The position numbers and the translations under genes are program-made. The notes under the pieces were generated by a model. That model made no database searches, had not been told where the DNA came from, and saw only the letters and a program-made list of their open reading frames with translations. Below are positions 29,178 through 45,878 of a stretch of 64,000 nt of DNA, one piece after another (positions within the stretch are counted from its first letter, which is position 1; the number at the start of each line of letters is the position of its first letter). Origin of the DNA: Butyribacter intestini (GTDB lineage Bacteria > Bacillota > Clostridia > Lachnospirales > Lachnospiraceae); contig LLKB01000001.1 in the NCBI GenBank assembly GCA_001414325.1, forward strand, positions 1,353,156 to 1,417,155, given 5' to 3'.

Positions 29178-30131
29178 CTATTTTTTCATATATGAATAAT
29201 ATCCGTCGTTTTCCTTTCGCACTGTCATATTAAATCCATCTGTTGTTTTATCTCCCTTTTCTTTAAATTTCACATTTATTTCTAACAGCTTTATATCTTC
29301 CTCCGACTGCTGTTTTTTTGTAATATTAGCCGTAAACATCAGCTTTGTTCCAGATTTACACACAACTTTTGCTTTTTTATTTTCTTTCCAATTGCTGTCT
29401 TTGTCAGATAAAACTGTTTTTTCTATCGACATACCGGCATTTGTCTCTTTAACATTGCAAATATATGTGCCTCCATCACCAGATTTGCCAAATTGCAATA
29501 TAAATTGGATTTTTGTTGTCTCTCCGTCTTTTGTTGCATGAACTTTTAATTTCTGCTTTTTGTTAGTTCTTATTTCTGTGCCATCAGCACAATTGTCCCC
29601 ACTTTTAGCCGAACCGCTGTTTTTTTCCTCCGTTTTATCATAATCTGCACTTACACCATCTTCTGTCCCACTCTTTTTATTTTTCTGCGTGTCGGATACA
29701 TTTTCATCATATCCTGCTGCTATATCCTGCAACACGCTGGTTTGTGTCCCGTCAGAGTCCTGTATTTCTTCCTCTGTTATCTCAGGATTATAGATATATA
29801 TATGTATATTTTCTGATGCATATTTAAATGTCTCACTCTCATCCATAGAATCATCATTCTTGCTTTTATCATAGTTTTTTTCAACAGTCTTCCCTGTCGA
29901 ACTTAATTCATTTTTATATGACTTTTTCGGTTTTTCATATACAAATAATGCACAACCTATGACTGCTGCGGCTGTCCCAACGGCAAATACAGTTTTTGCA
30001 TATTTTTTTAATCTCTTTCGTCTAAAAGACATCTTTTTAATATTTTCTGAATAATCCTCTGCTTCTTTTAGCATTTCTTCTGAAACACCGCCAATGGCAT
30101 ACATCAGCTTTTCCGCCTTTTTTTCGCTCAC
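29178..30131 (-). CDS. single-pass membrane protein, probable anti-sigma factor
   Basis: 317 residues. A cytoplasmic N-terminus (1-~47) opens with MYAIGGVSEEMLKEAEDYS. One membrane helix follows (about 48-66, VFAVGTAAAVIGCALFVY), and then a hydrophilic, Lys/Ser/Asp-rich extracellular part ending in a beta-type domain (from about 190). The GTG start overlaps the sigma factor stop codon by four bases (GTGA). Translational coupling and topology are those of ECF anti-sigma factors, though no zinc-binding ASD motif (HxxxCxxC) is present. The signal it responds to is unknown. Confidence 0.7.
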   Translation of the reverse strand: MSEKKAEKLMYAIGGVSEEMLKEAEDYSENIKKMSFRRKRLKKYAKTVFAVGTAAAVIGCALFVYEKPKKSYKNELSSTGKTVEKNYDKSKNDDSMDESETFKYASENIHIYIYNPEITEEEIQDSDGTQTSVLQDIAAGYDENVSDTQKNKKSGTEDGVSADYDKTEEKNSGSAKSGDNCADGTEIRTNKKQKLKVHATKDGETTKIQFILQFGKSGDGGTYICNVKETNAGMSIEKTVLSDKDSNWKENKKAKVVCKSGTKLMFTANITKKQQSEEDIKLLEINVKFKEKGDKTTDGFNMTVRKENDGYYSYMKK

Positions 30132-30685
30132 ACTACCGCCTCCTTTTCAAGCCATACGGCAAGCTCCTTTCTCATACGGCTAAGGATTGATTTTACCGTA
30201 CCCTCTTTTATATCAAGCTCCTCAGCGATTTCCTTAATATCCATAACATAGAAATATCGTTTCAAAAAGACGGTACGTTTTCTCTTAGTCTGTTTCCACA
30301 AAAAATCTTCTATTGACTCTGTAAGAAGTTTATATTCCATGTCTTTTTCCACCGTCTTTCCGTCAGTTATACACTCATTAAGTTCCTCTATTGCAATATT
30401 CACACTATTCCCTCCTCTTTTTAATGCATGCATATCCCTATACCTGTTAAGCGACAGATTCCTCACTATCTTGGCAAGAAATGTACTAAGCACTGACGGT
30501 CGGCTTGGCGGAATCGTATTCCATGTCCTTAGCCATGTATCATTTACACACTCTTTTGCATCTTCCTCATCATGTACAATACGCTCTGAAATACAAAAAC
30601 AATAACGGTCGTATTTTTCAGATAGTTCGTTAATACCGTTTTCATTTCTGTCCCATATCAACTGTACTATTTTCTCATCTTCCAT
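30128..30685 (-). CDS. ECF-type RNA polymerase sigma factor
   Basis: 185 residues. Region 2 includes DAKECVNDTWLRTWNTIPPS, and region 4 has MDIKEIAEELDIKEGTVKSILSR in its helix-turn-helix (about 145-175). It directs polymerase to a specific regulon when released by the anti-sigma protein encoded next. The open frame runs 16 codons further upstream into a repeat, but the ATG at 30685 has AAAGGAG seven bases ahead and begins MEDEKIVQLIW. A 200-bp foldback repeat starts 34 bp upstream, inside the probable 5' leader. Confidence 0.9.
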   Translation of the reverse strand: MEDEKIVQLIWDRNENGINELSEKYDRYCFCISERIVHDEEDAKECVNDTWLRTWNTIPPSRPSVLSTFLAKIVRNLSLNRYRDMHALKRGGNSVNIAIEELNECITDGKTVEKDMEYKLLTESIEDFLWKQTKRKRTVFLKRYFYVMDIKEIAEELDIKEGTVKSILSRMRKELAVWLEKEAVV

Positions 30686-30718
30686 ATATCTCCTTTTTGT
30701 TAAATTAAAAATAGGCGT

Positions 30719-30919
30719 TTGCGAAACTATCATAAATCTTGATTAAATTGTGCAGATATAACAAAAAGTGTTAGTCGGCATTTTTGTCGTCGTCAGCACT
30801 TAATCAGCGTTTTTTGCTGATTTATGTACTGCTACGAACGACAACATAGAGCGAAAGCGTGCCGACGATATTATTTGTTATATGTGTGCAATTGACACAA
30901 CATATAGTTAGTTTCGCAA
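30719..30919. repeat. foldback repeat family 2, copy 1 (201 bp)
   Basis: Ends are TTGCGAAACTA (30719-30729) and TAGTTTCGCAA (30909-30919). Inside, GATATAACAAA pairs with TTTGTTATAT, GTCGGCA with TGCCGAC, and AATCAGC with GCTGATT at the tip, so the whole unit folds as one long imperfect hairpin. Nearly identical to 57560-57758. It ends four bases before the serpin stop codon and lies in the leader of the sigma factor gene. No coding capacity recognised. Confidence 0.85.
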
Positions 30920-30923
30920 TTAT

Positions 30924-32396
30924 CTATGCAACTCTATTTACTGCTCCCATAAATATTGGAAGACCGTCACTTGTTGAAACTATTATAATAAATGGTCTGT
31001 TGCAATTCATTGTGACAGTATCCTTTTTTTCGTCTGCCAATGCATCAATGGCAATCTCTGTATATGATGCCATACTGCATCCGTTTTCGTCAATCGTCAT
31101 CCTGCTATTTTGTTTTGCTTTACTAACATAAATTCCACCTTCTGATTTATTTTCTCCATCTGACACAAACATTTTAGAAAAATCTGCTTTTTTCCCATTA
31201 AAAATATTTTTTATACCCATATCCTGCATCAATGGATTTAATTCAAGTTCACTTTTAAAATCCAGTTTAGGCATTGAAAATTTTACTATCTTAGAATAAT
31301 CCCATTTTTTATTGAATGTGTTACACAATGAAATTATCTGCTTTGCGTCCTTATTATTTATGAGTTTGTCTGCTGCCACATTTTCCTTTGGCAGTATTAT
31401 ATTCATATTTGCATTTGTCATAGGTATCGAAACTGCCTGATACCTGCCATTCTCAGTATAGGCATAAGCATACTCCGAATTTAAAAAACTGCATTTTTCC
31501 TTATCAATCTTTTCCTCCTCAGTGGTATTACCACAGGTGTATGCAGACTGGCCGTAGAATATGCCCTTCCTTGTATTGTTTTTATCAAATCTGACTTTCC
31601 ACTGCTCCTTAAAATTTACGGCTGACAACAATAACATAGCCATGTCTTTATTTGTTTTCAGATTACCTTTTATCTTACCACCTGTCTGCTCATCAATCCA
31701 TTTATTTATTTTATCATTAAAACTTTTACTTCCCATCTCTCCCGTTAAACTATACGCATTATAATCATTTTTAAGTATTGTGCCGGCTTCTCTGGAATAA
31801 TCATATTTATCACTGAGCCATGCAGAATTACCTAAAGAACAGTTTTCGGATTTTATTTTACCGCTTATATACCCCATCATCTTTCTTATTATCTTCTGTT
31901 CTTTCTCCTCTCTTTCATTTACATTTATGCAATCCGAAACATCTGCTCTAAACATATTTTTGCCAAATGAATTTAATATCTGCTCCCGACTCTGCCCTGC
32001 AGTCATTTCCGAGAGCATCCCGTTTGCAAGATACATATTTATATTTGAGCAGGCGACAAGCCCCTTTTGTGGATTATCCCCCCAGCTCTGTTTAAGAAAA
32101 TGATATAAAAGACTACTGTTATAATCTTTATAAATCTGTTTACATTTTTTAACTTCTTCATTTGACAAATTTACAGATGATTTTTTCTTCTTTCCCACAA
32201 GTTCCTTTTTCTTGTCTTGTACTTCGCTGCTTGATGACTCACCATCCTTTTTCTGAATATCAGATGTTTTTTGTGTACTTACATTTTTGTTTCCTGTTTC
32301 ATTAAGACCGGTCTTTCTGCCGCCACATCCGGTCGTTCCTGCTATTACAAGTGTCATAAATAATGCAAATGCCTTTGCAATCCTGTCTTTTCTCAT
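30924..32396 (-). CDS. lipoprotein serpin (serine protease inhibitor)
   Basis: 490 residues. A lipoprotein signal peptide ends at GTTGCGG, with the lipobox Cys at about residue 24. A charged Ser/Lys linker follows, then a serpin domain (about 75-490). Family hallmarks: NVNEREEKEQKI-type helices, NFKEQWKVRFDKNNTRKGIF, the hinge region TIDENGCSMASYTEIAID before the reactive loop, and the C-terminal RPFIIIVSTSDGLPIFMGAV. Serpins trap serine or cysteine proteases by loop insertion; on the cell surface this would defend against host or competitor proteases. The hinge (ENGCSMASYTEI) has small residues in the right places but is not the ideal Ala-rich form, so inhibitory activity is likely, not certain. 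AAAGGAGG precedes the ATG. Confidence 0.88.
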   Translation of the reverse strand: MRKDRIAKAFALFMTLVIAGTTGCGGRKTGLNETGNKNVSTQKTSDIQKKDGESSSSEVQDKKKELVGKKKKSSVNLSNEEVKKCKQIYKDYNSSLLYHFLKQSWGDNPQKGLVACSNINMYLANGMLSEMTAGQSREQILNSFGKNMFRADVSDCINVNEREEKEQKIIRKMMGYISGKIKSENCSLGNSAWLSDKYDYSREAGTILKNDYNAYSLTGEMGSKSFNDKINKWIDEQTGGKIKGNLKTNKDMAMLLLSAVNFKEQWKVRFDKNNTRKGIFYGQSAYTCGNTTEEEKIDKEKCSFLNSEYAYAYTENGRYQAVSIPMTNANMNIILPKENVAADKLINNKDAKQIISLCNTFNKKWDYSKIVKFSMPKLDFKSELELNPLMQDMGIKNIFNGKKADFSKMFVSDGENKSEGGIYVSKAKQNSRMTIDENGCSMASYTEIAIDALADEKKDTVTMNCNRPFIIIVSTSDGLPIFMGAVNRVA

Positions 32397-32588: not shown

Positions 32589-35500
32589 TTACACCTCATG
32601 CTGTTCTGAGATAGTTGCCACATCTACGATAGAAAGCTTATCCTTGCCCTCTGTCTCAAGTGATGTGAGAAGTGCTGCTGCCGTATCAAGCGATGTAAGG
32701 CAGTTTACACCTGTCTCAATGGCTGTTCTTCTGATAAGGAAACCATCTTTAAGCTTGTCATCATGCGTTGGTGTATCTATTACAAGATCTATCTGATGCT
32801 CAAGCAACAGATCCATAAGTGTAGGTGCTTCTTCATTTATACGGTTTACAGGTATTGCAAGAACTCCTGCTTCGTTAAATACCTTAGCTGTTCCCCTCGT
32901 AGAGAAAATGTCATAGCCAAGTTTCTTAAAGCGTTTAGCAATCTCGATTCCCTCTTCTTTGTCAGCATCATTAAGAGTGATTATCATCTTCTTATGCTTT
33001 GGAAGATCTATTCCTGCTCCCTTAAATGCCTTATAAAGTGCTTCATTGAAGTCTTTTGATATACCGAGACACTCACCTGTTGATTTCATTTCAGGTCCAA
33101 GGCTTATCTCTGCTCCCCTAAGTTTTTCAAATGAGAATACAGGCATCTTGATGGCAATATATTTTGACTTCTTTGCAAGTCCTGTTCCATATCCGAAATC
33201 TTTAACCTTTGCACCAAGTATTACTTTTGTTGCAAGATCTACGATAGGAATACCTGTTACCTTGCTGATATATGGAACGGTACGGCTTGAACGAGGATTT
33301 ACCTCAATTACATACACCTGGTCATGGTAAACAATAAACTGTATATTTATAAGTCCGATTACATGAAGTGATTTTGCAAGTTTTCTTGTGTAATCGACAA
33401 GCATATCCTGTATTCTGTCAGTGATAGTCTGTGCAGGATATACCGAGATACTGTCTCCCGAATGAATACCTGCTCTCTCGATATGCTCCATGATACCCGG
33501 TATAAGAATATCCTCACCGTCGCATACGGCATCTACCTCTATCTCTTTACCCATAAGATATTTATCTATAAGAATAGGATGCTCCTGATGATATCTTGTT
33601 ACAACCTGCATAAATTTCTTTATATCATCATCTGATACTGCTATCTGCATACCCTGTCCGCCAAGTACATATGAAGGACGGATAAGTACCGGATAACCAA
33701 GCTCATTTGCGACTTTAAGTGCTTCTTCTGTTGTGAATACCGTATCACCCTTTGCTCTTGGTATCTGACACTCCTCGAGTATCTGATCAAACAACTCTCT
33801 ATCCTCTGCGGCATCTACATCCTCTGCACTCGTTCCGAGAATCTTAACCCCCATCTTCATAAGTGATTCGGTAAGATTGATAGCTGTCTGTCCACCAAAC
33901 TGTACCACTGCTCCATCAGGTTTTTCAAGACGGACAATATTTTCAACATCCTCCGGTGTAAGCGGCTCAAAATAGAGTTTATCTGCTATATCAAAGTCTG
34001 TACTGACTGTCTCAGGATTGTTATTTATTATAATAGTCTCATAACCTTCTTCCCTAAGTGCCCATACACTGTGAACTGAACAGTAGTCAAACTCTATACC
34101 CTGTCCTATTCTGATAGGACCTGAACCAAGAACAATTATCTTTTTCTTTTTAGTTGTATCTTCTACTTCATTCACACCGTCAAAGCAGCTATAATAATAT
34201 GGAGTTTCTGAGGCAAACTCTGCCGCACAGGTATCAACCATCTTAAATGCTGCCGTGATGCCATACTCATAACGGAGATTTTTAATCTCTTCCTCAGTCT
34301 TTCCTGTCCAGCGTGCGATTACATTATCAGGAAATTCAAGTCTCTTAGCTTCTTTTAACAGCTCTTTGTCAAGATTTCCTTTTGACTCTTTAATCTTCTT
34401 CTCCATCTCTACGAGAATTGCAAGTTTATCGATAAACCACTTGTCAATCTTTGTAACCTCATGAATTTCATCATAAGAAGCGATTCCTCGGCGGAGTATT
34501 TCTGCTATAAGGTAAATTCTGCGGTCATCTACTACTGAAAGATGCTCGAGAACCTCCTCGTCAGACATATTATCATAATCTCCTGTCTCAAGGCAGTCAA
34601 CATGCTGTGAAAGTGACCTGATGGCTTTCATAAGTCCACCCTCAAAATTCGTGCAGATACTCATAACCTCACCTGTCGCTTTCATCTGCGTGGTAAGAGT
34701 TCTCTTTGCACTGATAAATTTATCAAATGGAAGACGAGGTATCTTAACTACCACATAGTCAAGTGCAGGCTCAAAACTTGCATATGTCTTTCCTGTTACG
34801 GCATTCGGAATCTCATCAAGCGTATATCCGAGTGCTATCTTTGCTGAAACCTTTGCAATAGGATAACCCGTTGCCTTTGAAGCAAGAGCTGATGAACGGC
34901 TTACACGAGGATTTACCTCTATTACTATATATTCAAATGATGTAGGATGAAGTGCAAACTGAACATTACATCCACCCGTGATTCCAAGTTCGTCGATAAT
35001 CTTTAAAGCAGATGTACGAAGCATCTGATACTCTTTGTCTGACAATGTCTGTGACGGTGCAACTACGATACTGTCACCTGTATGAACTCCGACCGGGTCA
35101 AGGTTTTCCATGTTGCAGACGGTAATGCAGGTTCCGTTGCTGTCACGCATTACCTCATACTCTATCTCTTTCCATCCTGCGATACATCTCTCTACAAGTA
35201 CCTGTCCTACTCTTGAAAGTCTAAGACCATTTGAAAGTATCTCCACAAGTTCTTCCTCATTGTGTGCTATACCGCCGCCTGAACCTCCGAGCGTATATGC
35301 AGGACGAAGTACGACCGGATAACCGATCTTATTTGCAAATTCGATACCGTCTTCAATATTTTCAACGAGTTCTGATGATGCACACGGCTCACCGATTTTC
35401 TCCATAAGGTCTTTAAATTCCTGACGACCCTCAGCATTTCTGATAGTCTCTGCTGTCGTTCCGAGAAGTCTTACTCCGTGGCTCTCAAGAAATCCGGACT

Positions 35501-35810
35501 CAGCAAGCTCCATGCCGAGATTAAGACCTGCCTGTCCGCCCATGTTAGGCAAAAGACTATCAGGCTTTTCAACTTCGATTATATGCTGCAATACCTCTGT
35601 TGTAAGTGGCTCTATATAGACCTTATCTGCAATATCTTTATCTGTCATAATAGTTGCAGGATTAGAATTGACGAGGATAACTTCCATTCCCTCCTCTTTA
35701 AGAGAGCGGCACGCCTGTGTTCCTGCATAATCAAACTCTGCGGCCTGTCCGATTACAATAGGACCAGAACCTATTACAAGTACCCTTTTGATTCCTTCCA
35801 TCTTTGGCAT
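32589..35810 (-). CDS. carB: carbamoyl-phosphate synthase large subunit
   Basis: 1073 residues, standard length. Two homologous ATP-grasp halves each begin with the VLVIGSGPIVIGQAAEFDY-type motif (residue 9, and IIVLGSGPIRIGQGIEFDY at about 556). A C-terminal MGS-like allosteric domain starts near 940. It makes carbamoyl phosphate from bicarbonate, two ATP and ammonia from CarA, for pyrimidine and arginine synthesis. Start and carA stop overlap by one base (TAATG), so the two are translationally coupled. Last gene of the GS-like/ANTAR/carAB operon. Confidence 0.98.
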   Translation of the reverse strand: MPKMEGIKRVLVIGSGPIVIGQAAEFDYAGTQACRSLKEEGMEVILVNSNPATIMTDKDIADKVYIEPLTTEVLQHIIEVEKPDSLLPNMGGQAGLNLGMELAESGFLESHGVRLLGTTAETIRNAEGRQEFKDLMEKIGEPCASSELVENIEDGIEFANKIGYPVVLRPAYTLGGSGGGIAHNEEELVEILSNGLRLSRVGQVLVERCIAGWKEIEYEVMRDSNGTCITVCNMENLDPVGVHTGDSIVVAPSQTLSDKEYQMLRTSALKIIDELGITGGCNVQFALHPTSFEYIVIEVNPRVSRSSALASKATGYPIAKVSAKIALGYTLDEIPNAVTGKTYASFEPALDYVVVKIPRLPFDKFISAKRTLTTQMKATGEVMSICTNFEGGLMKAIRSLSQHVDCLETGDYDNMSDEEVLEHLSVVDDRRIYLIAEILRRGIASYDEIHEVTKIDKWFIDKLAILVEMEKKIKESKGNLDKELLKEAKRLEFPDNVIARWTGKTEEEIKNLRYEYGITAAFKMVDTCAAEFASETPYYYSCFDGVNEVEDTTKKKKIIVLGSGPIRIGQGIEFDYCSVHSVWALREEGYETIIINNNPETVSTDFDIADKLYFEPLTPEDVENIVRLEKPDGAVVQFGGQTAINLTESLMKMGVKILGTSAEDVDAAEDRELFDQILEECQIPRAKGDTVFTTEEALKVANELGYPVLIRPSYVLGGQGMQIAVSDDDIKKFMQVVTRYHQEHPILIDKYLMGKEIEVDAVCDGEDILIPGIMEHIERAGIHSGDSISVYPAQTITDRIQDMLVDYTRKLAKSLHVIGLINIQFIVYHDQVYVIEVNPRSSRTVPYISKVTGIPIVDLATKVILGAKVKDFGYGTGLAKKSKYIAIKMPVFSFEKLRGAEISLGPEMKSTGECLGISKDFNEALYKAFKGAGIDLPKHKKMIITLNDADKEEGIEIAKRFKKLGYDIFSTRGTAKVFNEAGVLAIPVNRINEEAPTLMDLLLEHQIDLVIDTPTHDDKLKDGFLIRRTAIETGVNCLTSLDTAAALLTSLETEGKDKLSIVDVATISEQHEV

Positions 35811-36913
35811 TATTTATTTCCTCCAATCATCTTCATAAATTCATCAAACAACATTTCTGAGTCCTTAGGACCTGCATTTGCCTCAGGATGAAACTGCACT
35901 GTCTTTACAGGCTTTCCTATATATTCAAGTCCCTCTATAGTTCCGTCATTTACATTTACAAACCACGGTTTTGCCACTGATGCATCTATTCCGTCCGCAT
36001 CTACTACATATCCATGATTCTGTGAAGAAATATATACTTTTCCGGTCTCAAGATTTTTGACTGGATGGTTTGCTCCTCTATGTCCGTATTTCATCTTATA
36101 TGTCTTTGCATTATGTGCAAGTGCCATAAGCTGATGACCGAGACAGATTGCAAATACAGGTATATTTGAATCGGCAAGTTTTTTTACCTGTGCGATAATA
36201 TCTACACACTCAGCAGGATCTCCCGGTCCGTTTGTTATCATAATTCCGTCAGGCTTTGATGCGATAACCTCGTCTGCATCAAAATCACACGGATAAACAG
36301 TTACATTGCATCCTCTGTTTAAAAGGCATCTTATAATGTTTTTCTTTGTTCCAACATCAATAACTGCAACATCTTTGTCAGCCGCAACGCTCTCTGAGCC
36401 TATATCTCCCGGAACATATTTTTCAATCTTGTCACATGAAACTTTCTTAACTACACCTGTGACCGTATATTCTTTAAGCTTTGGAATGATCTCATCGAGA
36501 TTATAATTTTCATTTGTTGTTATCATTCCATTCATTGTACCTTTTTCACGAAGTATCTTTGTCAATGCTCTTGTATCTATGCCGCTGATACCCGGAATAT
36601 CATTTTTTTCAAGGAAATGCTGTACGGTGTCTTCTGAACGGAAATTACTTGGAACTCTTGCAAGTTCTCTAACGATAAAGCCGTCAGGCCAGCCTTTTTT
36701 TGACTCCATATCCTTATAGCATATTCCATAGTTTCCAATAAGCGGATACGTCATGGTAACTGCCTGTCCCGCATAACTTGGATCTGTAAGAACCTCTAAA
36801 TAACCTGTCATTGATGTATTAAAAACAATCTCTGAGATTATCTCTTTGTCAACACCAATACTTTTTCCTTCAAATACTGTTCCATCTTCTAATATAAGAA
36901 ACGCTTTCTTCAT
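35810..36913 (-). CDS. carA: carbamoyl-phosphate synthase small subunit (glutaminase)
   Basis: 367 residues. N-terminal CPSase_sm domain (LEDGTVFEGKSIG) and C-terminal class I glutamine amidotransferase with the nucleophile Cys in FAICLGHQLMALA and the His-Glu pair in VQFHPEA. It hydrolyses glutamine and supplies ammonia to CarB. The ATG at 36913 lies one base after the stop of the ANTAR gene, with AAAGGAATGG upstream; an earlier in-frame ATG inside the ANTAR gene is less likely. Tight packing shows co-transcription with the ANTAR and GS-like genes. Confidence 0.97.
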   Translation of the reverse strand: MKKAFLILEDGTVFEGKSIGVDKEIISEIVFNTSMTGYLEVLTDPSYAGQAVTMTYPLIGNYGICYKDMESKKGWPDGFIVRELARVPSNFRSEDTVQHFLEKNDIPGISGIDTRALTKILREKGTMNGMITTNENYNLDEIIPKLKEYTVTGVVKKVSCDKIEKYVPGDIGSESVAADKDVAVIDVGTKKNIIRCLLNRGCNVTVYPCDFDADEVIASKPDGIMITNGPGDPAECVDIIAQVKKLADSNIPVFAICLGHQLMALAHNAKTYKMKYGHRGANHPVKNLETGKVYISSQNHGYVVDADGIDASVAKPWFVNVNDGTIEGLEYIGKPVKTVQFHPEANAGPKDSEMLFDEFMKMIGGNK

Positions 36914-36914
36914 A

Positions 36915-37475
36915 TTAAAATTCCCATTCCTTTCCATTAAGTTCTAATATCATCTCGGCGGTCTCTACTATATTGTTACCGCTGTCCATACTAAGTTTTT
37001 GAATATAATGATGTGCTTCGTCTTCTGTCATCTGATTACGTTCCATCAAAAGCTCTTTAGCTGCCGTAATCACTTTTCGGTCATTTTCAGATCTGACTTT
37101 TGGTTTTTTCTTCTGCTTCTTCTTCCATCTGTTGTACTGAACCATCATCATCTCAAGAGTGTTCAACAGATCCTGTACCTTAAAAGGCATAGCCAGTGAA
37201 ACAATTCCATCCAAATCGCAATCTGCCAGTTTCGCCGGAGATGCAAGCAAAAGCATAGCAAAGCCTTTTGGAAGATAATCATTTATCTCCGAATAATGCA
37301 TATCTGAAAATTTGTATCCGGATATAACTATTCCTCCATCAAGACTGTTTACCGCACTCACTATCTGTGCTCCACTGTCACAAACCATGTTTACATCATA
37401 ACCGTTACGAACAAGAAGCTTTCTTAAATTCTTCGCATCGTCCAATTTTGGAAAAGCTATGATAATATCTGCCAT
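36915..37475 (-). CDS. pseudo-receiver/ANTAR RNA-binding antiterminator
   Basis: 186 residues. Residues 1-115 have the response-regulator fold pattern but the phospho-acceptor position reads IVISGYKF instead of a V/L-L-D-x-x-M/L block, and the N-terminal acidic pair is replaced (IIIAFPKLDD). Phosphorylation is therefore unlikely. Residues about 120-186 form a coiled coil and an ANTAR domain (VITAAKELLMERNQMTEDEAHHYIQKLS with the family Ala and aromatic positions). ANTAR proteins bind paired RNA hairpins and prevent termination. AGGAGG precedes the ATG at 37475; the frame opens ten codons earlier without a ribosome site. It lies between the GS-like gene (36 bp upstream) and carA. Confidence 0.88.
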   Translation of the reverse strand: MADIIIAFPKLDDAKNLRKLLVRNGYDVNMVCDSGAQIVSAVNSLDGGIVISGYKFSDMHYSEINDYLPKGFAMLLLASPAKLADCDLDGIVSLAMPFKVQDLLNTLEMMMVQYNRWKKKQKKKPKVRSENDRKVITAAKELLMERNQMTEDEAHHYIQKLSMDSGNNIVETAEMILELNGKEWEF

Positions 37476-37511
37476 GCAGAAACCTCCTGTCTTCTGTGCA
37501 AACAATCAATC

Positions 37512-38825
37512 CTATAAACTGGTTAAATATCTTTTCGTCTCCCATTGAGTCACCTGAGTACAATATTCATTCCATTCTTTGTCTTTGCTCTTTATGATAT
37601 GCTCTGAAATGTGGCTGCCAACAATCTCCTGCAGAAAATCATCTTCCTCAAATAATTTTACAGCCTCATAAAGCGTCCTCGGAAGGACTTCACATTTCTG
37701 TGCTTCTTTTTCAGATAAGTCATCCATACATACCGGCGGTTCAAGTTCCTCTTTTATACCACTAAGCCCGGCTGCAAGGCAGGCTGCGATAACAAGATAA
37801 GGATTTGCTGCACCATCAGGACTTCTTAAAACTATCCTCGCACCGTCACTTCCTATTGAAGTAAGTCGTATGAGCGGACTGGAATTTGTTGAAGACCATC
37901 CGACTGTGACCGGTGCCAGATAACCCGGTATAAGTCTCTTATATGAATTTACGATAGGGTTATTTATAAGTGACATATTCGCAATATGACTTAATATTCC
38001 TGCCATAAACTGATAACCCTCTTTGCTCACTCCCAAATCATCATTTTCATCATTAAAAACATTTTTTCCGTCTTTAAATAATGTAAATGTATAATGTGCT
38101 CCTGACCCCTTCGTATCTTTTTTAGGTTTTGGCATAAATGTCGCATTAACACCATGTCTCTTTGCCACGGTCCGTATAACAAGTCTCGATGTCATAATGT
38201 TATCTGCCATGTCAAGAGCATCCGCATAACTTAAGTCAAGCACATGCTGTGCCGATTCATCAGAATGATATGATGTTTCAACACTTATCCCCATATCTGC
38301 AAGATAAAGTACCATATCACGCCTTGCATTTTCGCCACCGTCAGCAGGTCCAACATCAAAATAGCCGCCCTGTTCACTTGAATGATTGGTCGGCTCTCCG
38401 TTCTCACCGAGGTCAAAAAGGAAGAACTCATTCTTGATAGCTACCTTAAATTCATATCCAAGTTCCTTTGCCTCTGAAATAACTTTCTTTAAAATATATC
38501 TGCTGTCACCATCAAAAGGTGTGCCGTCAGGCTTAACAACATCACATAAAAAACGGGCAACCTTGCCGTGCTGTGGACGCCAAGGAAAAATAACAAATGT
38601 ATCTAAGTCCGGAACTAAAAACAGTTCTTCATATCCAGTACCACGGAAACCGTCAATAGCCGCACAATCAAACTTATAATGTCCGTCTAAAATCTTATCA
38701 AGCTGGTCAATTGTAGTCGCCATGTTCTTTAAATTTCCGGATATATCCGTGAACTGAAGGCGGATAAATTCTATATCTTCTTCATCAATCAGTTCCAATA
38801 TATCCTGTCTGGTATATTTTGCCAT
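37512..38825 (-). CDS. glutamine-synthetase-like protein with degenerate active site
   Basis: 437 residues, GSI fold throughout (ends WNEYCTQVTQWETKRYL). Compared with known GSI ligands (Salmonella numbering, from memory): E129 is Lys and E131 is kept (AIKNEFFLF). E212 and E220 are Ser and Val in SYHSDESAQHVLDL, where active enzymes have HHEVAxxQHEI. H269 is kept (GSGAHYTF). Flap E327 is Leu (PGYLAPV). The SARNRS arginines are lost (SSTNSSPLIR). E357 is Val (ARIVLRSPD). Most metal and catalytic groups are gone, so synthesis of glutamine is doubtful. No adenylylation loop is seen. GGAGG and ATG at 38825; strong promoter 47 bp upstream. First gene of the operon with the ANTAR protein and carAB, suggesting a ligand-sensing role. 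Automatic annotation would call it glnA. Confidence 0.85.
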   Translation of the reverse strand: MAKYTRQDILELIDEEDIEFIRLQFTDISGNLKNMATTIDQLDKILDGHYKFDCAAIDGFRGTGYEELFLVPDLDTFVIFPWRPQHGKVARFLCDVVKPDGTPFDGDSRYILKKVISEAKELGYEFKVAIKNEFFLFDLGENGEPTNHSSEQGGYFDVGPADGGENARRDMVLYLADMGISVETSYHSDESAQHVLDLSYADALDMADNIMTSRLVIRTVAKRHGVNATFMPKPKKDTKGSGAHYTFTLFKDGKNVFNDENDDLGVSKEGYQFMAGILSHIANMSLINNPIVNSYKRLIPGYLAPVTVGWSSTNSSPLIRLTSIGSDGARIVLRSPDGAANPYLVIAACLAAGLSGIKEELEPPVCMDDLSEKEAQKCEVLPRTLYEAVKLFEEDDFLQEIVGSHISEHIIKSKDKEWNEYCTQVTQWETKRYLTSL

Positions 38826-38871: not shown

Positions 38872-38900
38872 ATTATACAAAAAAAACTCTCATATGTCAA
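38872..38900 (-). promoter_or_regulatory. strong sigma-A promoter of the GS-like/ANTAR/carAB operon
   Basis: Minus strand: TTGACA (38895-38900), 17 bp including a T-tract, TATAAT (38872-38877), both perfect consensus. Transcription starts near 38865, leaving about 40 nt of leader, too short for a paired-hairpin antiterminator target. Confidence 0.9.
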
Positions 38901-38928: not shown

Positions 38929-39111
38929 GTAACAGTTCAGCCATAAAAAGATAATCAGCAATGCATAAGCTCGCTTAATGAATTGCTGATTATCTTTTTA
39001 TGGTAGAATAGCCTTTCATCTCTGAAATGAAATAAACAAAAGCTGCATAGCAGCGACTGACAGCTTGCTGGCAGGTTTATGAATGTTAGAGATGAAAGAC
39101 TGAACTGTTAC
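38929..39111. repeat. structured repeat family 1, copy B (183 bp)
   Basis: Same architecture as copy A at 22216: ends GTAACAGTTCAGCC and GACTGAACTGTTAC; a long hairpin whose 20-bp stem (about 38941-38998) has a sequence different from copy A; stem CTTTCATCTCT/AGAGATGAAAG (39013-39023, 39088-39098); stem ATAAAC/GTTTAT (39032-39037, 39075-39080); and the conserved core GCTGCATAGCAGCGACTGAC. It starts 104 bp upstream of the GS-like start codon, just beyond the promoter. Confidence 0.85.
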
Positions 39112-39198
39112 ATACATTATTTTTTCAATCAATAACCATGCCTATTCTCAATCTGCTGCTATACCTGTTCATATACAATATTTCTGTTCTTTTGCACC

Positions 39199-39369: not shown

Positions 39370-40851
39370 TTATGGAAGATTTGTGTAACCCATAAGGAAC
39401 TCATCAACTTCCCTAGCTACATGTCTTCCCTCATTTATTCCCCACACAACGAGCGACTGGCCTCTGTGCATATCACCGGCAGTAAACACCTTATCTACAG
39501 ATGTTTTATAACTGCCCTCTGCCGTCTCTACATTTGTACGGGCATTTAATTTTACCCCGAACGCTTTTGCAACATAATCCTGAGTACCAAGAAAACCTGC
39601 TGCGATAAGTACATAGTCGGCAGGAATCTCAAATTCACTTCCCGGTATCTCGACCATATTTAATCTGCCTGTCTTTGCATCTTTCTTTGGCTCGAGTTTT
39701 ACAAGTTTAACTTTCTTTAACTTGCCATTCTTGTCAGCGATAAACTCTTTTACAGTTGCCTGATATATTCTCGGATCTTTGCCAAATACTGCTATCGCTT
39801 CTTCCTGACCGTAATCTGTCTTGCAGACACGAGGCCATTCCGGCCACGGATTGTTTGCGGCTCTCTCATCAGGAAGTTTGGGCATCATCTCAATCTGCAC
39901 TACCGATTTTGCACCCTGTCTTACCGCTGTTCCGACACAGTCATTACCCGTATCACCGCCACCGATGACAACAACATTCTTTCCTTTTGTATCTACCCAG
40001 CCGTCTTTTTTGCCCGTAAGCACATGCTTTGTAGAGCGTGTAAGGAAATCTACGGCAAAATAGATTCCGTCAGCTTCACGACCTGTCGCTTTTATATCTC
40101 TCGGATTTGATGCTCCGCAGGCAAGGATAACACTGTCATAATCTTTGACAATATCTGCCGCTTTCACCGTTTTTCCTACATCCGCGTTTACGACAAATTT
40201 AACGCCTTCTTCTTCCATGACTTTCTGTTTTCTGTCGATAACCCATTTCTCAAGCTTCATATTTGGAATACCGTACATAAGAAGTCCGCCGATATGGTCA
40301 TTTCTCTCAAAAACGGTTACATCATGACCTCTCCTGTTAAGCTGATCTGCTGCCGCAAGTCCTGAAGGACCTGAGCCGATGATTGCAACTTTCTTGCCTG
40401 TGCGTACCTTAGGCTTTCTAGCCTCCATAAGTCCGTTTGCATATCCATACTCTACAATGGCATTCTCATTTGCCTTACATGTTACCGGCGAATCGTTAAG
40501 CCCGCAGGTGCAGGCTGCTTCACAGAGTGCCGGGCATACTCTCGATGTAAACTCCGGAAAATTGTTAGTCTGGCGGAGCATCTGAAGTGCCTCTTTCATA
40601 CATCCGTGATAGAGAAGATCATTCCATTCAGGCACGAGATTGTTTAAAGGACAACCTGATGCCATTCCATTTATCATCATACCTGACTGGCAGAACGGAA
40701 CACCACAGTTCATACATCTTGAAGCCTGTTCTTTTCTATCCTTATCACTCATAGGAGTGTGAAATTCATTAAAGTTCTTTATTCTCTCTAAAGGCTCTAC
40801 TGCCTTATTATTTTTTCTTTCATATTCAAGAAATCCGGTTGGTTTGCCCAT
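39370..40851 (-). CDS. gltD: glutamate synthase small subunit
   Basis: 493 residues. The N-terminal Fe-S domain has Cys clusters CMNCGVPFC and CPALCEAACTCG. FAD binding is at VAIIGSGPSGLAAADQL (about 148) and NAD(P) binding at VVVIGGGDTGNDCVG (about 290). It passes electrons from NAD(P)H through FAD to GltB. The ATG at 40851 has AAGGAGG six bases upstream; the frame opens nine codons earlier without a ribosome site. Second gene of gltBD, 86 bp after gltB, with a hairpin between. Confidence 0.97.
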   Translation of the reverse strand: MGKPTGFLEYERKNNKAVEPLERIKNFNEFHTPMSDKDRKEQASRCMNCGVPFCQSGMMINGMASGCPLNNLVPEWNDLLYHGCMKEALQMLRQTNNFPEFTSRVCPALCEAACTCGLNDSPVTCKANENAIVEYGYANGLMEARKPKVRTGKKVAIIGSGPSGLAAADQLNRRGHDVTVFERNDHIGGLLMYGIPNMKLEKWVIDRKQKVMEEEGVKFVVNADVGKTVKAADIVKDYDSVILACGASNPRDIKATGREADGIYFAVDFLTRSTKHVLTGKKDGWVDTKGKNVVVIGGGDTGNDCVGTAVRQGAKSVVQIEMMPKLPDERAANNPWPEWPRVCKTDYGQEEAIAVFGKDPRIYQATVKEFIADKNGKLKKVKLVKLEPKKDAKTGRLNMVEIPGSEFEIPADYVLIAAGFLGTQDYVAKAFGVKLNARTNVETAEGSYKTSVDKVFTAGDMHRGQSLVVWGINEGRHVAREVDEFLMGYTNLP

Positions 40852-40885
40852 AATTATCCTCCTTATCCTGTCGCTCAAACATCAC

Positions 40886-40937: not shown

Positions 40938-43900
40938 TTATGCCTGATTTTTGTGTGCATAAAATGCTTCTATCTGTGCCTGCTCGTAGCTTAATCCTCT
41001 TTCTTCCATCTGAGCGATAAGCTGAAGCATCTTGCTGTAATCATAAGAAATTATCTTTTTAAACTTAGGAAGATAATCACTGAAGTTTTCAAGGATATTC
41101 TTTCCTTTTGCTGAATTTGTAGCTTCAACATGCTCCTCTATTATCTTCTTTAACTCAAGTACATCATATTTGTCTGTTACCGGCTGTGATGAGACAAGGT
41201 CTTTGTTAAGTTTAAGGTAAAGGTCACTGTTCTCATCAAGTACATATGCGACACCGCCGCTCATACCAGCCGCAAAGTTCTTTCCTGTAGGTCCGAGTAT
41301 AACCACGCGACCGCCTGTCATGTACTCACATCCGTGGTCGCCGACACCCTCAACAACTGCCGTTGCTCCTGAGTTACGGACACAGAAACGCTCACCGGCA
41401 ATACCGTTTATAAATGCCTTACCGCTTGTAGCACCATACAGTGCAACATTACCAATAATGATATTATCCTCTGCCTTAAATTTAGAACCTGCCTGTGGAT
41501 ATACAACAATTTTTCCGCCTGAAAGACCTTTTCCGAGGTAATCATTTGAATCACCGACAAGCTCAAGTTTAAGCCCCTTAGGGATAAATGCACCGAAGCT
41601 CTGACCGCCGCTTCCGTGACACTCAACAGTAATAGTGTCCTCCTCAAGCGTATCGCTGAATTTCTTTGTAATCTCTGAACCGAGTATCGTACCAAATGTA
41701 CGGTTGATATTTGTCACATCGACTGTAACTTTTGCCGGTTCTCCTGTCTGGAGTGATTTTTTAAGTTTAGGAAGTAAAACTTTTTCATCTATTGTCTTTT
41801 CAAGCTCAAAGTTATATACATTCTTTGGATTGAATTTATTTTCTTTTCTCTCATTTGCAAATGATGAGTCAATTATCTCGTTAAAGTTGATGTGATGTTC
41901 CTCAACCTTTGGATCATCCTTAACTTTAAGAAGGTCTGTGCGGCCGATGAGGTCATCGACTTTCTTAATTCCAAGTAAAGCCATGTACTCACGAAGTTCC
42001 TGTGCGATAAACTTCATAAAGTTCTCAACATATTCAGGCTTTCCTTTAAATCTCTTTCTGAGTTCAGGATTCTGTGTTGCAACACCTACAGGGCAGGTAT
42101 CGAGATTACATACACGCATCATTACGCAGCCCATTGTTACAAGCGGTGCTGTTGCAAATCCATACTCTTCTGCTCCAAGAAGTGCTGCCACAAGCACATC
42201 ACGGCCTGTCATAAGTTTACCGTCTGTCTCGATGCGGACACGGGAACGGAGTCCGTTCATTATTAGTGTCTGGTGTGTCTCCGCAAGACCAAGTTCCCAA
42301 GGAAGACCTGCATTGTAGATTGAACTTCTAGGTGCTGCTCCTGTACCTCCGTCATATCCTGAAATAAGGATAACTGCCGCTCCGGCTTTGGCAACACCGG
42401 CTGCTACAGTACCTACTCCGGCTTCTGAAACAAGTTTAACTGATATTCTCGCATCTTTATTACTATTCTTAAGGTCATAGATAAGCTGTGCCAAGTCCTC
42501 GATAGAATAGATGTCATGATGTGGCGGAGGTGAGATAAGACTTACACCAGGTGTTGAATGTCTTGTCTTTGCAACCCACGGATAAACCTTTCCTCCCGGA
42601 AGATGACCTCCCTCACCAGGCTTAGCTCCCTGTGCCATCTTAATCTGGATTTCCTTTGCACTGACAAGATAACGCGATGTTACACCAAAACGACCTGATG
42701 CAACCTGCTTTATTGCTGAACATCTATCCTCAGGCTGTCCTGCCGTAAGAAGTCTGTCAAGGCTTTCACCACCCTCACCACTATTTGACTTACCATGAAG
42801 ATGATTCATCGCAATGGCAAGTGTCTCATGTGCCTCCTGTGAAATTGAACCATAAGACATTGCACCTGTCTTAAATCTCTTAACAATCTCGTCAACACTC
42901 TCAACCTCATCAATCGAAATACCCTTCTTAGGATAATTAAAATCAAGCATACTTCTTAATGTTACATTATGCTCTTTTTCATCTATACACTTTGAATACT
43001 GTTTGAACAACTCATAATTTCCAGTCCATGTAGCCTGCTGCAAAAGATGTATTGTCTCAGGATTATATAAATGTTCCTCTTTATGACCTCTCTCTTTGTG
43101 CTGACCACGGCTCTCAAGATTCATATCAGTCTCAAGTCCAAGTGGATCAAATGCTGCTGAATGAAGTGTATCAACCTGTTTCTCAATATCCTCAAGTGTA
43201 ATATCACCTGCACAGCATACAGTGTCAGTAAAGTATTTCTCGATAACATCCTCTGAAATACCAATGGCTTCAAAAATCTTTGAACCCTGGTATGACTGAA
43301 TTGTAGAAATACCCATTTTTGATGTAATCTTGACAATTCCGTGAAGGACCGCTGCGTCATAATCATCAACCGCTGCATAATAATCTTTGTCAAGAAGATT
43401 CTGCCCGATAAGCTCTTTTATAGTGCTGTGGGCAAGATAAGGATTTATCGCACAGGCACCATATCCCAATATTGTAGCAAAGTGATGTACTTCTCTTGGC
43501 TCTGCTGATTCAAGTATCATTGCAACACTTGTTCTCTTCTTTGTAGTTACAAGATGCTGCTGCATTGAAGCTACCGCAAGAAGTGACGGTATAGCCACAT
43601 GGTTCTCATCAACTCCCCTGTCAGTAAGGATAAGAATGTTTGCACCCTCCTTGTAAGCTCTGTCAGCTTCAAGACACATACGGTCAAGTGCTTTCTTAAG
43701 TGATGTATTCTTATAATAAGTAATAGGAATATCAACGCACTTAAATCCCTCTTTATCCATATATTTAATCTTCATAAGGTCAGTGTCAGTAAGGATAGGA
43801 TTGCGGATTTTAAGCACCTTGCAGTTGTCAGCCTTTTCTTCAAGCAGATTTCCGTCCTCACCGATATAAACGCTTGTCGATGTTACGATTTCCTCTCTTA

Positions 43901-45530
43901 TCGCATCAATAGGAGGGTTTGTAACCTGTGCAAAAAGCTGTTTAAAATAGTTGAACAATGGCTGTGGCTTATCTGAAAGCATTGGAAGCGGTGTATCAGT
44001 ACCCATTGAAGCAATAGGCTCTGCACCTTTCTGTGCCATAGGAAGAATCGACTCCTTGTAATCCTCATAAGTATAACCGAATGCCTTCTGAAGTCTTGCT
44101 CTCTCCTCGTCAGTAAACTCCACTACTTTCTTATTAGGAATACGAAGTTCCTTTAAAGTAACAAGATTGCTGTTAAGCCACTCACCATAAGGCTGGCGTG
44201 AAGCATATTTTTCTTTAAGCACTTCATCATCGATAAGCTCACCCTTGACTGTATCAACAAGAAGCATACGACCCGGTCTTAATCTGTCTTTCTTAACAAT
44301 CTTTTCAGGCGGAATGTCGAACACGCCTACTTCTGAAGAAAGGATAAGCTGGTCATCTGTTGTAATGTAATAACGTGATGGACGAAGACCGTTTCTGTCA
44401 AGAACCGCTCCCATAATATCACCGTCAGAGAAAAGGATTGAAGCCGGTCCATCCCAAGGCTCCATCATCGTCGCATAATACTGATAGAAATCTCTCTTTT
44501 TCTGGCTGACGCTCATGTCATGTTCCCACGGTTCAGGAATGGTTATCATAACAGCAAGCGGAAGCTCCATACCGCTCATCACAAGAAACTCAAGTGTATT
44601 ATCAAGTCTTGCCGAATCAGAACCGTTTGGATTGACAACCGGAAGAACCTTGTGGAAATCATTTGCAAGGAGTGAAGTTTCCATAGTCTCCTCACGGGCG
44701 AGCATCTTGTCGGCATTACCTACGATAGTATTTATCTCACCGTTGTGAACGATAAATCTGTTCGGATGTGCTCTCATCCAGCTTGGATTTGTATTCGTAC
44801 TAAATCTTGAATGTACCGTTGCGATAGCTGATACATAATCAGGATCCTGAAGGTCTTTAAAGAAAAGACGAAGCTGTCCTACAAGGAACATACCTTTATA
44901 GACTATCGTACGGCTTGAAAATGAAACAACATATGTGTCATCGTTACTCTGTTCAAACACACGGCGTGCAACATAGAGTTTGCGGTCAAAATCAAGTCCT
45001 TTCTCAACCTCCTCAGGTCTTTTAACAAATGCCTGCATGATGTATGGCATACATTCAAGTGCCTTATGTCCTAATATTTCAGGCTCAGTAGGAACTTTTC
45101 TCCAGCCGAGAAGTTCAAGCCCCTCCTTTTCAATAATGACTTCAAACATCTTTTTGGCACGGTTTCTTTTAAGTTCATCCTGTGGGAAGAAAAACATTCC
45201 GATACCGTAATCTCTCTCATCTCCGAGTTCAAAACCGAGTGGTTTAACTGCCTTTTTAAAGAATTTATGTGAAATCTGTAAGAGAATACCAACACCGTCA
45301 CCGGTCTTTCCCTCAGCATCCTTACCTGCACGATGCTCCAGCTTCTCGACAATGTCAAGAGCTCCGGAAACAGTATCATGTGTCTTATTTCCCTTGATAT
45401 TTACAATAGAACCGATACCACAGTTATCATGTTCATAACGGGGATCGTAAAGACCTCTCTTTTCATGATCAATAACCTTTGAGGCTTCATCTAAAACCCT
45501 GCTGTTACAAGTTTCAGTATTTGTCATCAT
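40938..45530 (-). CDS. gltB: glutamate synthase large subunit
   Basis: About 1530 residues. A propeptide is followed by NCGIGS, whose Cys becomes the N-terminal nucleophile of the class II glutaminase. Next come the central domain and the FMN-binding synthase barrel (GAKPGEGGHLPGGKVYPWV, SGYDGGTGAAPRSSI). The 3Fe-4S cysteines lie in CVMMRVCNLDTCPVG, and the C-terminal GXGXG beta-helix follows. It makes two glutamates from glutamine and 2-oxoglutarate. Start at ATG 45530 or the adjacent ATG 45527, both behind GGAGG. Transcribed from the promoter at 45850-45878 through a long structured leader. Confidence 0.97.
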   Translation of the reverse strand: MMTNTETCNSRVLDEASKVIDHEKRGLYDPRYEHDNCGIGSIVNIKGNKTHDTVSGALDIVEKLEHRAGKDAEGKTGDGVGILLQISHKFFKKAVKPLGFELGDERDYGIGMFFFPQDELKRNRAKKMFEVIIEKEGLELLGWRKVPTEPEILGHKALECMPYIMQAFVKRPEEVEKGLDFDRKLYVARRVFEQSNDDTYVVSFSSRTIVYKGMFLVGQLRLFFKDLQDPDYVSAIATVHSRFSTNTNPSWMRAHPNRFIVHNGEINTIVGNADKMLAREETMETSLLANDFHKVLPVVNPNGSDSARLDNTLEFLVMSGMELPLAVMITIPEPWEHDMSVSQKKRDFYQYYATMMEPWDGPASILFSDGDIMGAVLDRNGLRPSRYYITTDDQLILSSEVGVFDIPPEKIVKKDRLRPGRMLLVDTVKGELIDDEVLKEKYASRQPYGEWLNSNLVTLKELRIPNKKVVEFTDEERARLQKAFGYTYEDYKESILPMAQKGAEPIASMGTDTPLPMLSDKPQPLFNYFKQLFAQVTNPPIDAIREEIVTSTSVYIGEDGNLLEEKADNCKVLKIRNPILTDTDLMKIKYMDKEGFKCVDIPITYYKNTSLKKALDRMCLEADRAYKEGANILILTDRGVDENHVAIPSLLAVASMQQHLVTTKKRTSVAMILESAEPREVHHFATILGYGACAINPYLAHSTIKELIGQNLLDKDYYAAVDDYDAAVLHGIVKITSKMGISTIQSYQGSKIFEAIGISEDVIEKYFTDTVCCAGDITLEDIEKQVDTLHSAAFDPLGLETDMNLESRGQHKERGHKEEHLYNPETIHLLQQATWTGNYELFKQYSKCIDEKEHNVTLRSMLDFNYPKKGISIDEVESVDEIVKRFKTGAMSYGSISQEAHETLAIAMNHLHGKSNSGEGGESLDRLLTAGQPEDRCSAIKQVASGRFGVTSRYLVSAKEIQIKMAQGAKPGEGGHLPGGKVYPWVAKTRHSTPGVSLISPPPHHDIYSIEDLAQLIYDLKNSNKDARISVKLVSEAGVGTVAAGVAKAGAAVILISGYDGGTGAAPRSSIYNAGLPWELGLAETHQTLIMNGLRSRVRIETDGKLMTGRDVLVAALLGAEEYGFATAPLVTMGCVMMRVCNLDTCPVGVATQNPELRKRFKGKPEYVENFMKFIAQELREYMALLGIKKVDDLIGRTDLLKVKDDPKVEEHHINFNEIIDSSFANERKENKFNPKNVYNFELEKTIDEKVLLPKLKKSLQTGEPAKVTVDVTNINRTFGTILGSEITKKFSDTLEEDTITVECHGSGGQSFGAFIPKGLKLELVGDSNDYLGKGLSGGKIVVYPQAGSKFKAEDNIIIGNVALYGATSGKAFINGIAGERFCVRNSGATAVVEGVGDHGCEYMTGGRVVILGPTGKNFAAGMSGGVAYVLDENSDLYLKLNKDLVSSQPVTDKYDVLELKKIIEEHVEATNSAKGKNILENFSDYLPKFKKIISYDYSKMLQLIAQMEERGLSYEQAQIEAFYAHKNQA

Positions 45531-45650
45531 TATTACCTCCATATCATTATTTATGTACTCTCGGCATCTTCTCAAAACGAATAATTTCGGCTGAATTTCC
45601 GAAGGTACATTATTTTACAATTTTGTGTTTTGTTTATATCCTTTAGAAAA

Positions 45651-45832
45651 ACAAAAAGAGGCTCAGCAAATAACTGAAAACACATATGGAACATCTTCTT
45701 CATAAGAAAAAGTCCTATCATGTAAACAGATACTATATCAAAAGACACTTCCGGCTAAAAGCCATACCAGTCCTGTGATACAAATATCCCTTTACTGATA
45801 ATTGTTTTCATATCATTTGCTGAACCCCTTTG
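45651..45832 (-). promoter_or_regulatory. candidate riboswitch/attenuator leader of gltBD
   Basis: On the minus strand, the 5' arm GGGGTTCAGCAAATGATATG (revcomp of 45828-45809) and the 3' arm CAGTTATTTGCTGAGCCTC (revcomp of 45676-45658) form a long closing stem around ~130 nt. A T-rich tract (CTTTTTGTTTTTC) follows the 3' arm. Inside, TATCACAGGAC pairs with GTCTTTTGATA, GGC/GCC forms a small hairpin within it, and GGACTTTTTCTT pairs with AAGAAGATGTTCC. Transcription starts about 15 nt before the first arm. I do not recognise the class; it lacks glutamine-riboswitch or T-box signatures that I know. Confidence 0.6.
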
Positions 45833-45849
45833 TTCATCAAACTGGTTTG

Positions 45850-45878
45850 ATTATATATTTTTTGAGCAAAAAAAGCAA
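45850..45878 (-). promoter_or_regulatory. sigma-A promoter of gltBD
   Basis: Minus strand TTGCTT (45873-45878), 17 bp, TATAAT (45850-45855). Predicted start near 45843, giving a 310-nt leader. The remaining gap to 46015 is AT-rich with nothing else recognised. Confidence 0.75.

Follow-up and report, generated by a model that had tools for sequence, protein, structure and literature searches.

We analysed a 64,000-nt stretch of the Butyribacter intestini genome (contig LLKB01000001.1, 1,353,156 to 1,417,155; hereafter the window, to whose positions coordinates refer), in which a gene for a relative of type I glutamine synthetase (GSI) is followed on the same strand by a gene for an ANTAR protein. 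The glutamine synthetase (GS)-like protein has kept its fold and lost most of its catalytic residues, and we consider it likely that it acts as a nitrogen sensor whose ANTAR partner antiterminates the transcripts of glnN, encoding type III glutamine synthetase (GSIII), and of gltBD, encoding glutamate synthase (GOGAT). The genes of the locus are ordered gltB, gltD, GS-like, ANTAR, carA and carB on the minus strand (Table 1), and the placement of carA immediately behind the ANTAR gene, as given in an initial annotation of this DNA, holds in both coordinates and order.

The GS-like protein carries both GS domains in Pfam (Gln-synt_C, PF00120, 341.7 bits; Gln-synt_N, PF03951, 72.6 bits) and aligned end to end with the Bacillus subtilis enzyme (4s0r, E 5.9e-136), the best solved structures being GSI. 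Its score against the NCBIfam equivalog model for GlnA (TIGR00653) was 393.4 bits, below the cut-off of 429.15. In B. subtilis GS numbering, we mapped the substitutions R62G, E132K, E189S, E196V, N240K, E304L, R316S and E333V, together with the retention of E134, G241, H245, R298, R321 and R335. We take E132, E189 and E196 to be the glutamates that together make up one metal site, E333 to be a ligand of the second metal and E304 to be the flap glutamate; G241, H245, R298 and R335 are presumably residues of the pocket. The metal ligands and flap glutamate expected of a type I enzyme are changed in the window's protein, and five of the seven active-site residues that we scored are gone. The initial annotation had described a protein of GSI length with altered catalytic motifs, and all four of the changes it quoted (in HHEVAxxQHEI, and GYEAP to GYLAP, VELRSPD to IVLRSPD and SARNRS to SSTNSS) were confirmed. 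As part of the overall explanation, a catalytically dead glutamine synthetase is the likely reading of this sequence.

The same losses were found throughout the window's group. We compared 20 distinct GS-like sequences, of which 18 came from same-genus genomes and two, L034 and L044, were named loci with a similar level of identity (L and G numbers are our handles for loci and genomes), leaving out L022, which is cut at a contig end. All five positions were altered in every sequence: residue 132 was always K, 189 was S or L, 196 was V or A, 304 was L or M, and 333 was V or I. With every one of the 20 sequences sharing these losses, the window copy is not a sequencing oddity, an outcome that the initial annotation had listed among those that would refute it, and the protein can be regarded as a conserved GS pseudoenzyme. 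The gene also looks to be under purifying selection, with pN/pS at 0.05 to 0.21 across nine pairs of dead GS genes and at 0.05 and 0.09 in two live pairs, all pairs having been picked by hand and synonymous divergence (dS) being saturated in several. Full-length open frames were present at 18 of the 19 same-genus loci fetched (L022 stops at the contig end), and the window's protein was 74 to 78% identical to 17 relatives.

In a tree of 92 GS proteins, made by a quick method with the active-site columns masked and without L005 to L022 (same-genus loci, many of them copies) and L106, 21 rows lacked at least two of the seven catalytic residues, and three changes of state were needed. Nineteen of these 21 rows formed a single clade with a Shimodaira-Hasegawa-like approximate likelihood ratio test (SH-aLRT) support of 97, which includes Anaeromicropila populeti (L047), L045 to L051 and the window's group; L033, L045 and L049 are long branches whose placement is unsure. 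The branches of this dead clade show differing replacements at the catalytic positions.

An ANTAR gene lies directly downstream of the GS gene on the same strand at 77 of 80 named loci, a conserved adjacency that the initial annotation had set as a check. At the exceptions, no ANTAR gene occurs within the 6 kb examined (L105), the contig ends (L106), or the ANTAR gene is 1.9 kb away (L110). A further fetched set gave adjacency at 29 of 30 loci, the 30th being L022 with its contig end. Most of the GS proteins at the 77 ANTAR-linked loci have intact catalytic residues, and on this distribution the pairing is older than the loss of catalysis. The pairing is therefore conserved but not peculiar to a dead GS, as had first been supposed; since most homologous pairs keep the GS catalytic residues, its origin lies in a GS-ANTAR arrangement of clostridia, itself already known in part.

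The partner protein scored 60.0 bits against the Pfam ANTAR domain (PF03861; cut-off 27.3) and is encoded by the single ANTAR gene that Pfam found in the window's genome. We aligned it with its relatives in 107 rows including copies, 98 of them distinct. Position 53, which from known structures we take to be the site of the receiver phospho-Asp, is Gly in the window's protein and Asp in just three rows (the distant L030, L032 and L088), which bears out the earlier description of a receiver without its phospho-Asp. The RNA-binding core is mostly retained: K140 is found in 107 of 107 rows and M163 in 106, the latter equated by our own alignment count with M172 of EutV, a residue named in PMC8934654. 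The AlphaFold model, with a predicted local distance difference test (pLDDT) score of 89.6, was closest to RNA-bound EutV (6ww6, E 3.6e-10). Because the receivers are degenerate across the group, ordinary phosphorylation is unlikely as the input to the ANTAR protein, and the GS, as its constant neighbour, is the obvious candidate. A C-terminal KEW tail (36915-36940) was present at 28 of 29 window-group loci (in the remaining one, a contig end truncates the gene) and at none of 78 others; it falls in the lowest-confidence part of the model and may be a contact with the former GS active site.

The strongest candidate target is glnN, which lies outside the window. GSIII is the sole other GS found in the window's genome, with six metal-ligand positions intact, and 27 of 28 same-genus genomes proved to have it. 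We built an RNA model, R1, from 24 leaders of GS-ANTAR operons, none of them from the window's genus, and its best match in the window's genome, of four at E <= 10, was the glnN leader (C1:1172638-1172679(-), E 4.3e-4). The second match, L119 (G000:C1:1155929-1155965, -; E 0.016), precedes genes for a Fer2_4 protein and an FAD oxidoreductase, and the remaining two were weak. A hairpin and terminator stand 5′ of glnN in 25 of 25 assessable same-genus genomes, 24 of them identified by R1 at E <= 0.5 and G020 by reading; G010 (leader split between contigs), G013 (no GSIII found) and G022 (N-terminus cut) were left out of this count. The glnN gene is ∼220 kb from the GS-like gene in the window's genome, whereas in G008, G016 and G023 the two share a contig and are only ∼6 to 10 kb apart.

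The second candidate target lies within the window. A plain pattern for the hairpin matched four sites in the genome, namely, the glnN leader, the gltB leader and two sites inside open frames. The gltB-leader terminator was predicted in the window at -80.4 kcal/mol (z -9.1); no Rfam family matched the window at the gathering threshold. In this species the terminator loop exceeds that of most relatives by ∼140 nt (the loop of G003 is also long), and it looks as though a sequence had been inserted without preventing the terminator from closing. Hairpin and terminator precede gltB in all 21 assessable same-genus genomes, the window included, with G at loop position 4 (G4) in 21 and A at position 1 (A1) in 20, G003 having G at that position. 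A script that sought loops with A1 and G4 found 17 of these, and G003, G009, G010 and G016 were added by eye; genomes in which no gltB N-terminus was found (G013, G015, G017, G019, G021 and G024) and G011, in which it is cut, were left out. Thus, of the nitrogen genes that the initial annotation had put forward as targets, gltBD is supported by an ANTAR-type hairpin and terminator in its leader. The other, carAB, is not, since no ANTAR site was found 5′ of it in the window and it is just codirectional after the pair. The carA gene directly follows the ANTAR gene at 10 of the 11 closest named loci (L039 ends before it) and was seen in the flanks retrieved for 13 of 80 named loci, with carB in one more. 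We note that carAB at L060 and carB at L067 (contig end) lie directly upstream of GS-ANTAR, so that the linkage recurs in another order, and that an element with a long terminator loop precedes carA in G030, a genome of another genus (L152, G030:C17:48292-48367, -).

In many other genera, the GS-ANTAR operon itself opens, just past a strong promoter, with GAAC-AAGGGC-GTTC or a near variant, and the loop and 3′ stem of that hairpin double as the 5′ arm of an intrinsic terminator. This agrees with the geometry described for ANTAR targets, in which the terminator contains a hexaloop bearing A1 and G4 (PMC3369931, PMC8934654). Outside its training set, R1 matched eight further GS leaders at E <= 0.01 (L052, L055, L057, L059, L064, L075, L095 and L101). 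Its matches at L120, L145, L165, L168, L171, L174 and L180 were not counted because they were chance-like or had no sensible downstream gene, and the pattern matches L116 and L117 were set aside because they lie inside same-strand open frames. R1 gave no match in the GS-like gene's own leader at the 30 window-group loci (L004 to L022 and L034 to L044), which include copies and five loci with less than 250 nt upstream (L006, L012, L014, L037 and L038). Most window-group GS-like genes have a promoter of the TTGACA-N17-TATAAT type no more than ∼170 nt away. We considered an antiterminator in the window's GS-like leader and rejected it: the promoter is close, no hexaloop hairpin or terminator was seen, and R1 did not match. 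At L047, the least altered member of the wider dead clade, the hairpin and terminator are still visible by eye. From these sequences, it looks as if ANTAR-control sites sit on the GS and GOGAT genes and the sensor pair's own operon has been freed from such control.

We propose the following working model. With ample nitrogen, most likely sensed as high glutamine, the GS-like protein would keep its ANTAR partner inactive. Under nitrogen shortage, this partner would be released and would bind the hexaloop hairpin at the start of the glnN and gltBD transcripts; this binding would block the terminator, because the hairpin shares bases with the terminator's 5′ arm, and the GS and GOGAT genes would be read through. 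Glutamine is the most likely ligand of the GS-like protein, since the pocket residues persist while the metal chemistry is gone. The direction of control is modeled on NitR, a clostridial ANTAR protein that induces GS and GOGAT genes on nitrogen limitation (PMC6316151). We infer the complex, its ligand, the direction of control and the binding of the hairpin by the ANTAR protein. More guardedly, the balance tips slightly toward a wider evolutionary view, in which in a clade of the Lachnospiraceae the GS has lost catalysis and become a dedicated nitrogen receptor, its operon has shed its own antiterminator and come to be driven by a promoter, and it now gates GSIII and GOGAT through the ANTAR protein.

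Several observations weigh against the sensor model. Because a hairpin stem and a terminator were conditions for entering the training set of R1, the pairing statistics of its alignment are partly built in and not independent proof; R1 also gave no match in the window, missing the gltB element with its long loop, and a reversed control pattern matched the genome four times, as often as the real pattern. Each leader has one canonical hexaloop, and no second hexaloop hairpin was found; a dual-hexaloop script, limited to stems of at least four pairs, returned 4 of 110 GS leaders, neither window leader among them. PMC8934654, however, has revised the minimum ANTAR target to one hexaloop. In the ANTAR protein, the Tyr by which EutV stacks on loop G4 is His, as it is in 99 of 107 rows, and where we place the counterpart of EutV K147, the window's protein has Ala and the family varies. 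One relative, G014, has an insertion of ∼100 amino acids within an open GS-like frame.

The distribution of the regulator is also imperfect. No ANTAR gene was found in 8 of 28 same-genus genomes, seven of which also lack carA, and six genomes have the glnN element with no ANTAR or GS-like gene found (G003, G005, G007, G015, G017 and G021), five of them again without carA. Since carA is missing too and the gltB contigs stop there (within or just after gltB in G003, G005 and G007), the region is probably missing from these assemblies, loss being the less likely reading. In two genomes without an ANTAR gene, the region does not look plainly absent: G021 has carAB without an adjoining ANTAR gene, and its glnN hairpin is broken at the outer pair with the terminator intact; G042, which is reported to be 100% complete and has no ANTAR gene, gave a weak glnN-leader match (E 0.0125) with an imperfect stem. 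These observations, two cases only, fit a decay of the hairpin after loss of the regulator.

We weighed four other explanations. The GS-like protein could be an altered or metal-poor gamma-glutamyl ligase next to an ANTAR protein that regulates independently: GS relatives with other substrates, such as the glutamylpolyamine synthetases, are known, and with E134, H245, R298 and R335 kept, the pocket may bind glutamate. We regard this as improbable, because all the ligands at one metal site, E333 and the flap glutamate are changed in all 20 distinct sequences, ANTAR adjacency persists through the loss, and members of the dead clade lose their residues in differing ways, which a conserved new chemistry would not do. 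About equally doubtful is the view that the glnN and gltB hairpin-terminators are ordinary attenuators under other control. A match to an ANTAR-type site is by itself no proof of binding, the element occurs in some assemblies in which no ANTAR gene was found, and the EutV Tyr at G4 is replaced by His; the same element, however, precedes the GS-ANTAR operon in other genera, its G4 and A1 are kept in 21 and 20 of the 21 gltB leaders, and Pfam found only one ANTAR gene in the genome.

The dead GS might also be a subunit that tunes the activity of GSIII or CarAB and not a partner of the ANTAR protein, as could be read from carAB directly following the pair in the window's group and lying just upstream of the GS gene in L060 and L067, and from GSIII being the only other GS, encoded within ∼6 to 10 kb in three relatives. 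This seems to us a shade less probable again, given that GSIII is distant (∼25 to 33% identity over short stretches), that its gene is far from the pair in the window's genome, and that carA or carB is near the GS gene at 13 loci and one more, versus 77 for ANTAR. That linkage alone preserves the GS-like gene as a decaying remnant is very improbable: the loss of five of seven scored residues and the insertion in G014 would agree with decay, but the frames are open at 18 of 19 same-genus loci, identity for the 17 relatives is 74 to 78%, pN/pS is low (0.05 to 0.21), and replacements are invariant, as with the lysine fixed at the former metal ligand (K132). A sensor paired with an antiterminator thus remains the explanation that we prefer.

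Control of GS and GOGAT by ANTAR proteins in clostridia is known; a dead GS partner, with sites on GSIII and GOGAT, appears to be new. In the NitR system of Clostridium saccharobutylicum, an ANTAR protein acting by antitermination is linked to GOGAT and a type I GS, and that GS is taken to be an enzyme; here, the GS lacks catalytic residues, an antiterminator site was not found 5′ of its own operon, and the sites are on glnN and gltBD. An ANTAR-type site in GS and GOGAT leaders, as in the NitR scheme, is present here. PMC6316151 calls the mechanism in C. saccharobutylicum "yet not fully understood." In Clostridium thermocellum, the locus tags run without a gap from an ANTAR protein (Clo1313_2030) through a type I GS (2031) to GOGAT (2032-2036) (PMC4676874, PMC9888227). 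The initial annotation had known of no described system of this type, which stands for the dead GS partner but not for clostridial ANTAR antitermination of GS and GOGAT genes. Searches of the accessible parts of the open-licence literature turned up no account that pairs an ANTAR protein with a GS pseudoenzyme, which is no proof of absence.

Other comparisons are more distant. AmiC-AmiR and NasS-NasT likewise place a sensor from another protein class beside an ANTAR gene, with AmiC and NasS having a periplasmic-binding fold, whereas the partner here is a GS relative; AmiR is released by AmiC under ligand control, and 1qo0 is, from its title, presumably this pair. Ligand-controlled release of the ANTAR protein also operates in NasS-NasT (PMC3795266). 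EutV and the eut leaders resemble the present system in the predicted fold of the ANTAR protein and in a hexaloop with A1 and G4 lying within the 5′ side of the terminator; EutV is phosphorylated at its Asp and places a Tyr against G4, and each eut leader carries two hexaloops (PMC3369931, PMC8934654). In our system, by contrast, we see a degenerate receiver, His in place of the Tyr and a single hexaloop. Lengsin of the vertebrate lens (which we take to be structure 2j9i in our match list) also keeps a GS fold without GS activity; it belongs to the eukaryotic lens and is not known to be linked to any RNA regulator. In B. subtilis, GS signals nitrogen by contacting the regulators TnrA and GlnR; there, the GS is active and its partner binds DNA, whereas in our case a dead GS would be partnered with an RNA-binding antiterminator. 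For TnrA, this reporting of nitrogen status by protein contact is described in PMC6316151, and restraint of TnrA by GS is the closest working analogy to the model proposed here.

Table 1. Features of the GS-ANTAR locus and its surroundings (window positions)
Feature	Position	Strand	Basis
GS-like pseudoenzyme, GSI family, 437 aa	37512..38825	-	Pfam, motif and residue mapping
ANTAR protein with pseudo-receiver, 186 aa	36915..37475	-	Pfam, alignment, structure model
gltB, glutamate synthase large subunit, likely target	40938..45530	-	Leader element
gltD, glutamate synthase small subunit, likely target	39370..40878	-	
carA, 1 base 3′ of the ANTAR stop, same direction	35810..36913	-	
carB	32589..35810	-	
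Promoter-like TTGACA-N17-TATAAT 5′ of the GS-like gene, leader ∼40 nt	38872..38900	-	Read from sequence
ANTAR-type hairpin GAAC-AAAGGG-GTTC, loop A1 and G4, gltB leader	45822..45835	-	Pattern search
Intrinsic terminator, gltB leader, 5′ arm overlapping the hexaloop hairpin	45650..45831 (ends approximate)	-	Folding
Promoter-like TTGCTT-N17-TATAAT directly 5′ of the gltB leader hairpin	45850..45878	-	Read from sequence

Some further elements came to light in and beyond the window. A 181-bp palindromic intergenic repeat (38935-39115) separates gltD from the GS-like gene. It has at least 40 near-full-length copies in the genome, this one included, at 85 to 100% identity (40 of 196 candidates were scored), and because of these copies it probably belongs to a family like the miniature inverted-repeat transposable elements (MITEs) or repetitive extragenic palindromic (REP) sequences. 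The folding of this region (z -7.1 over a longer stretch) had made it a candidate regulatory leader, which we rejected because it is a repeat copy. Elsewhere, the hairpin and terminator were seen 5′ of an operon led by a gene for a circularly permuted ATP-grasp protein at L123, L126, L130, L136, L151 and L154 (in G004, G014, G015, G020, G018 and G010, in that order), the ATP-grasp assignment coming from Pfam in four and from 83 to 92% identity to L123 in the rest; at L151, an Alpha-E gene follows the ATP-grasp gene. The element before this operon therefore suggests nitrogen control of an amidoligase-like system. The window also encodes a Serpin-domain protein (30924-32396), with genes for an ECF sigma factor (30128-30733) and for a Big_2 repeat protein (26709-29054) close by.

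Nitrogen sensing in clostridia is poorly known. If the wider evolutionary view is true, a pseudoenzyme would control the enzyme that has replaced it in the reaction it once catalysed. Where a dead GS is fixed beside an ANTAR protein, the sensing and enzymatic roles of GS come apart, and GS as a signal input to antitermination across the wider GS-ANTAR family thereby becomes directly testable: the glnN and gltB leaders are concrete RNA targets for in vitro tests, and the GS tree lets enzyme and non-enzyme partners be compared.

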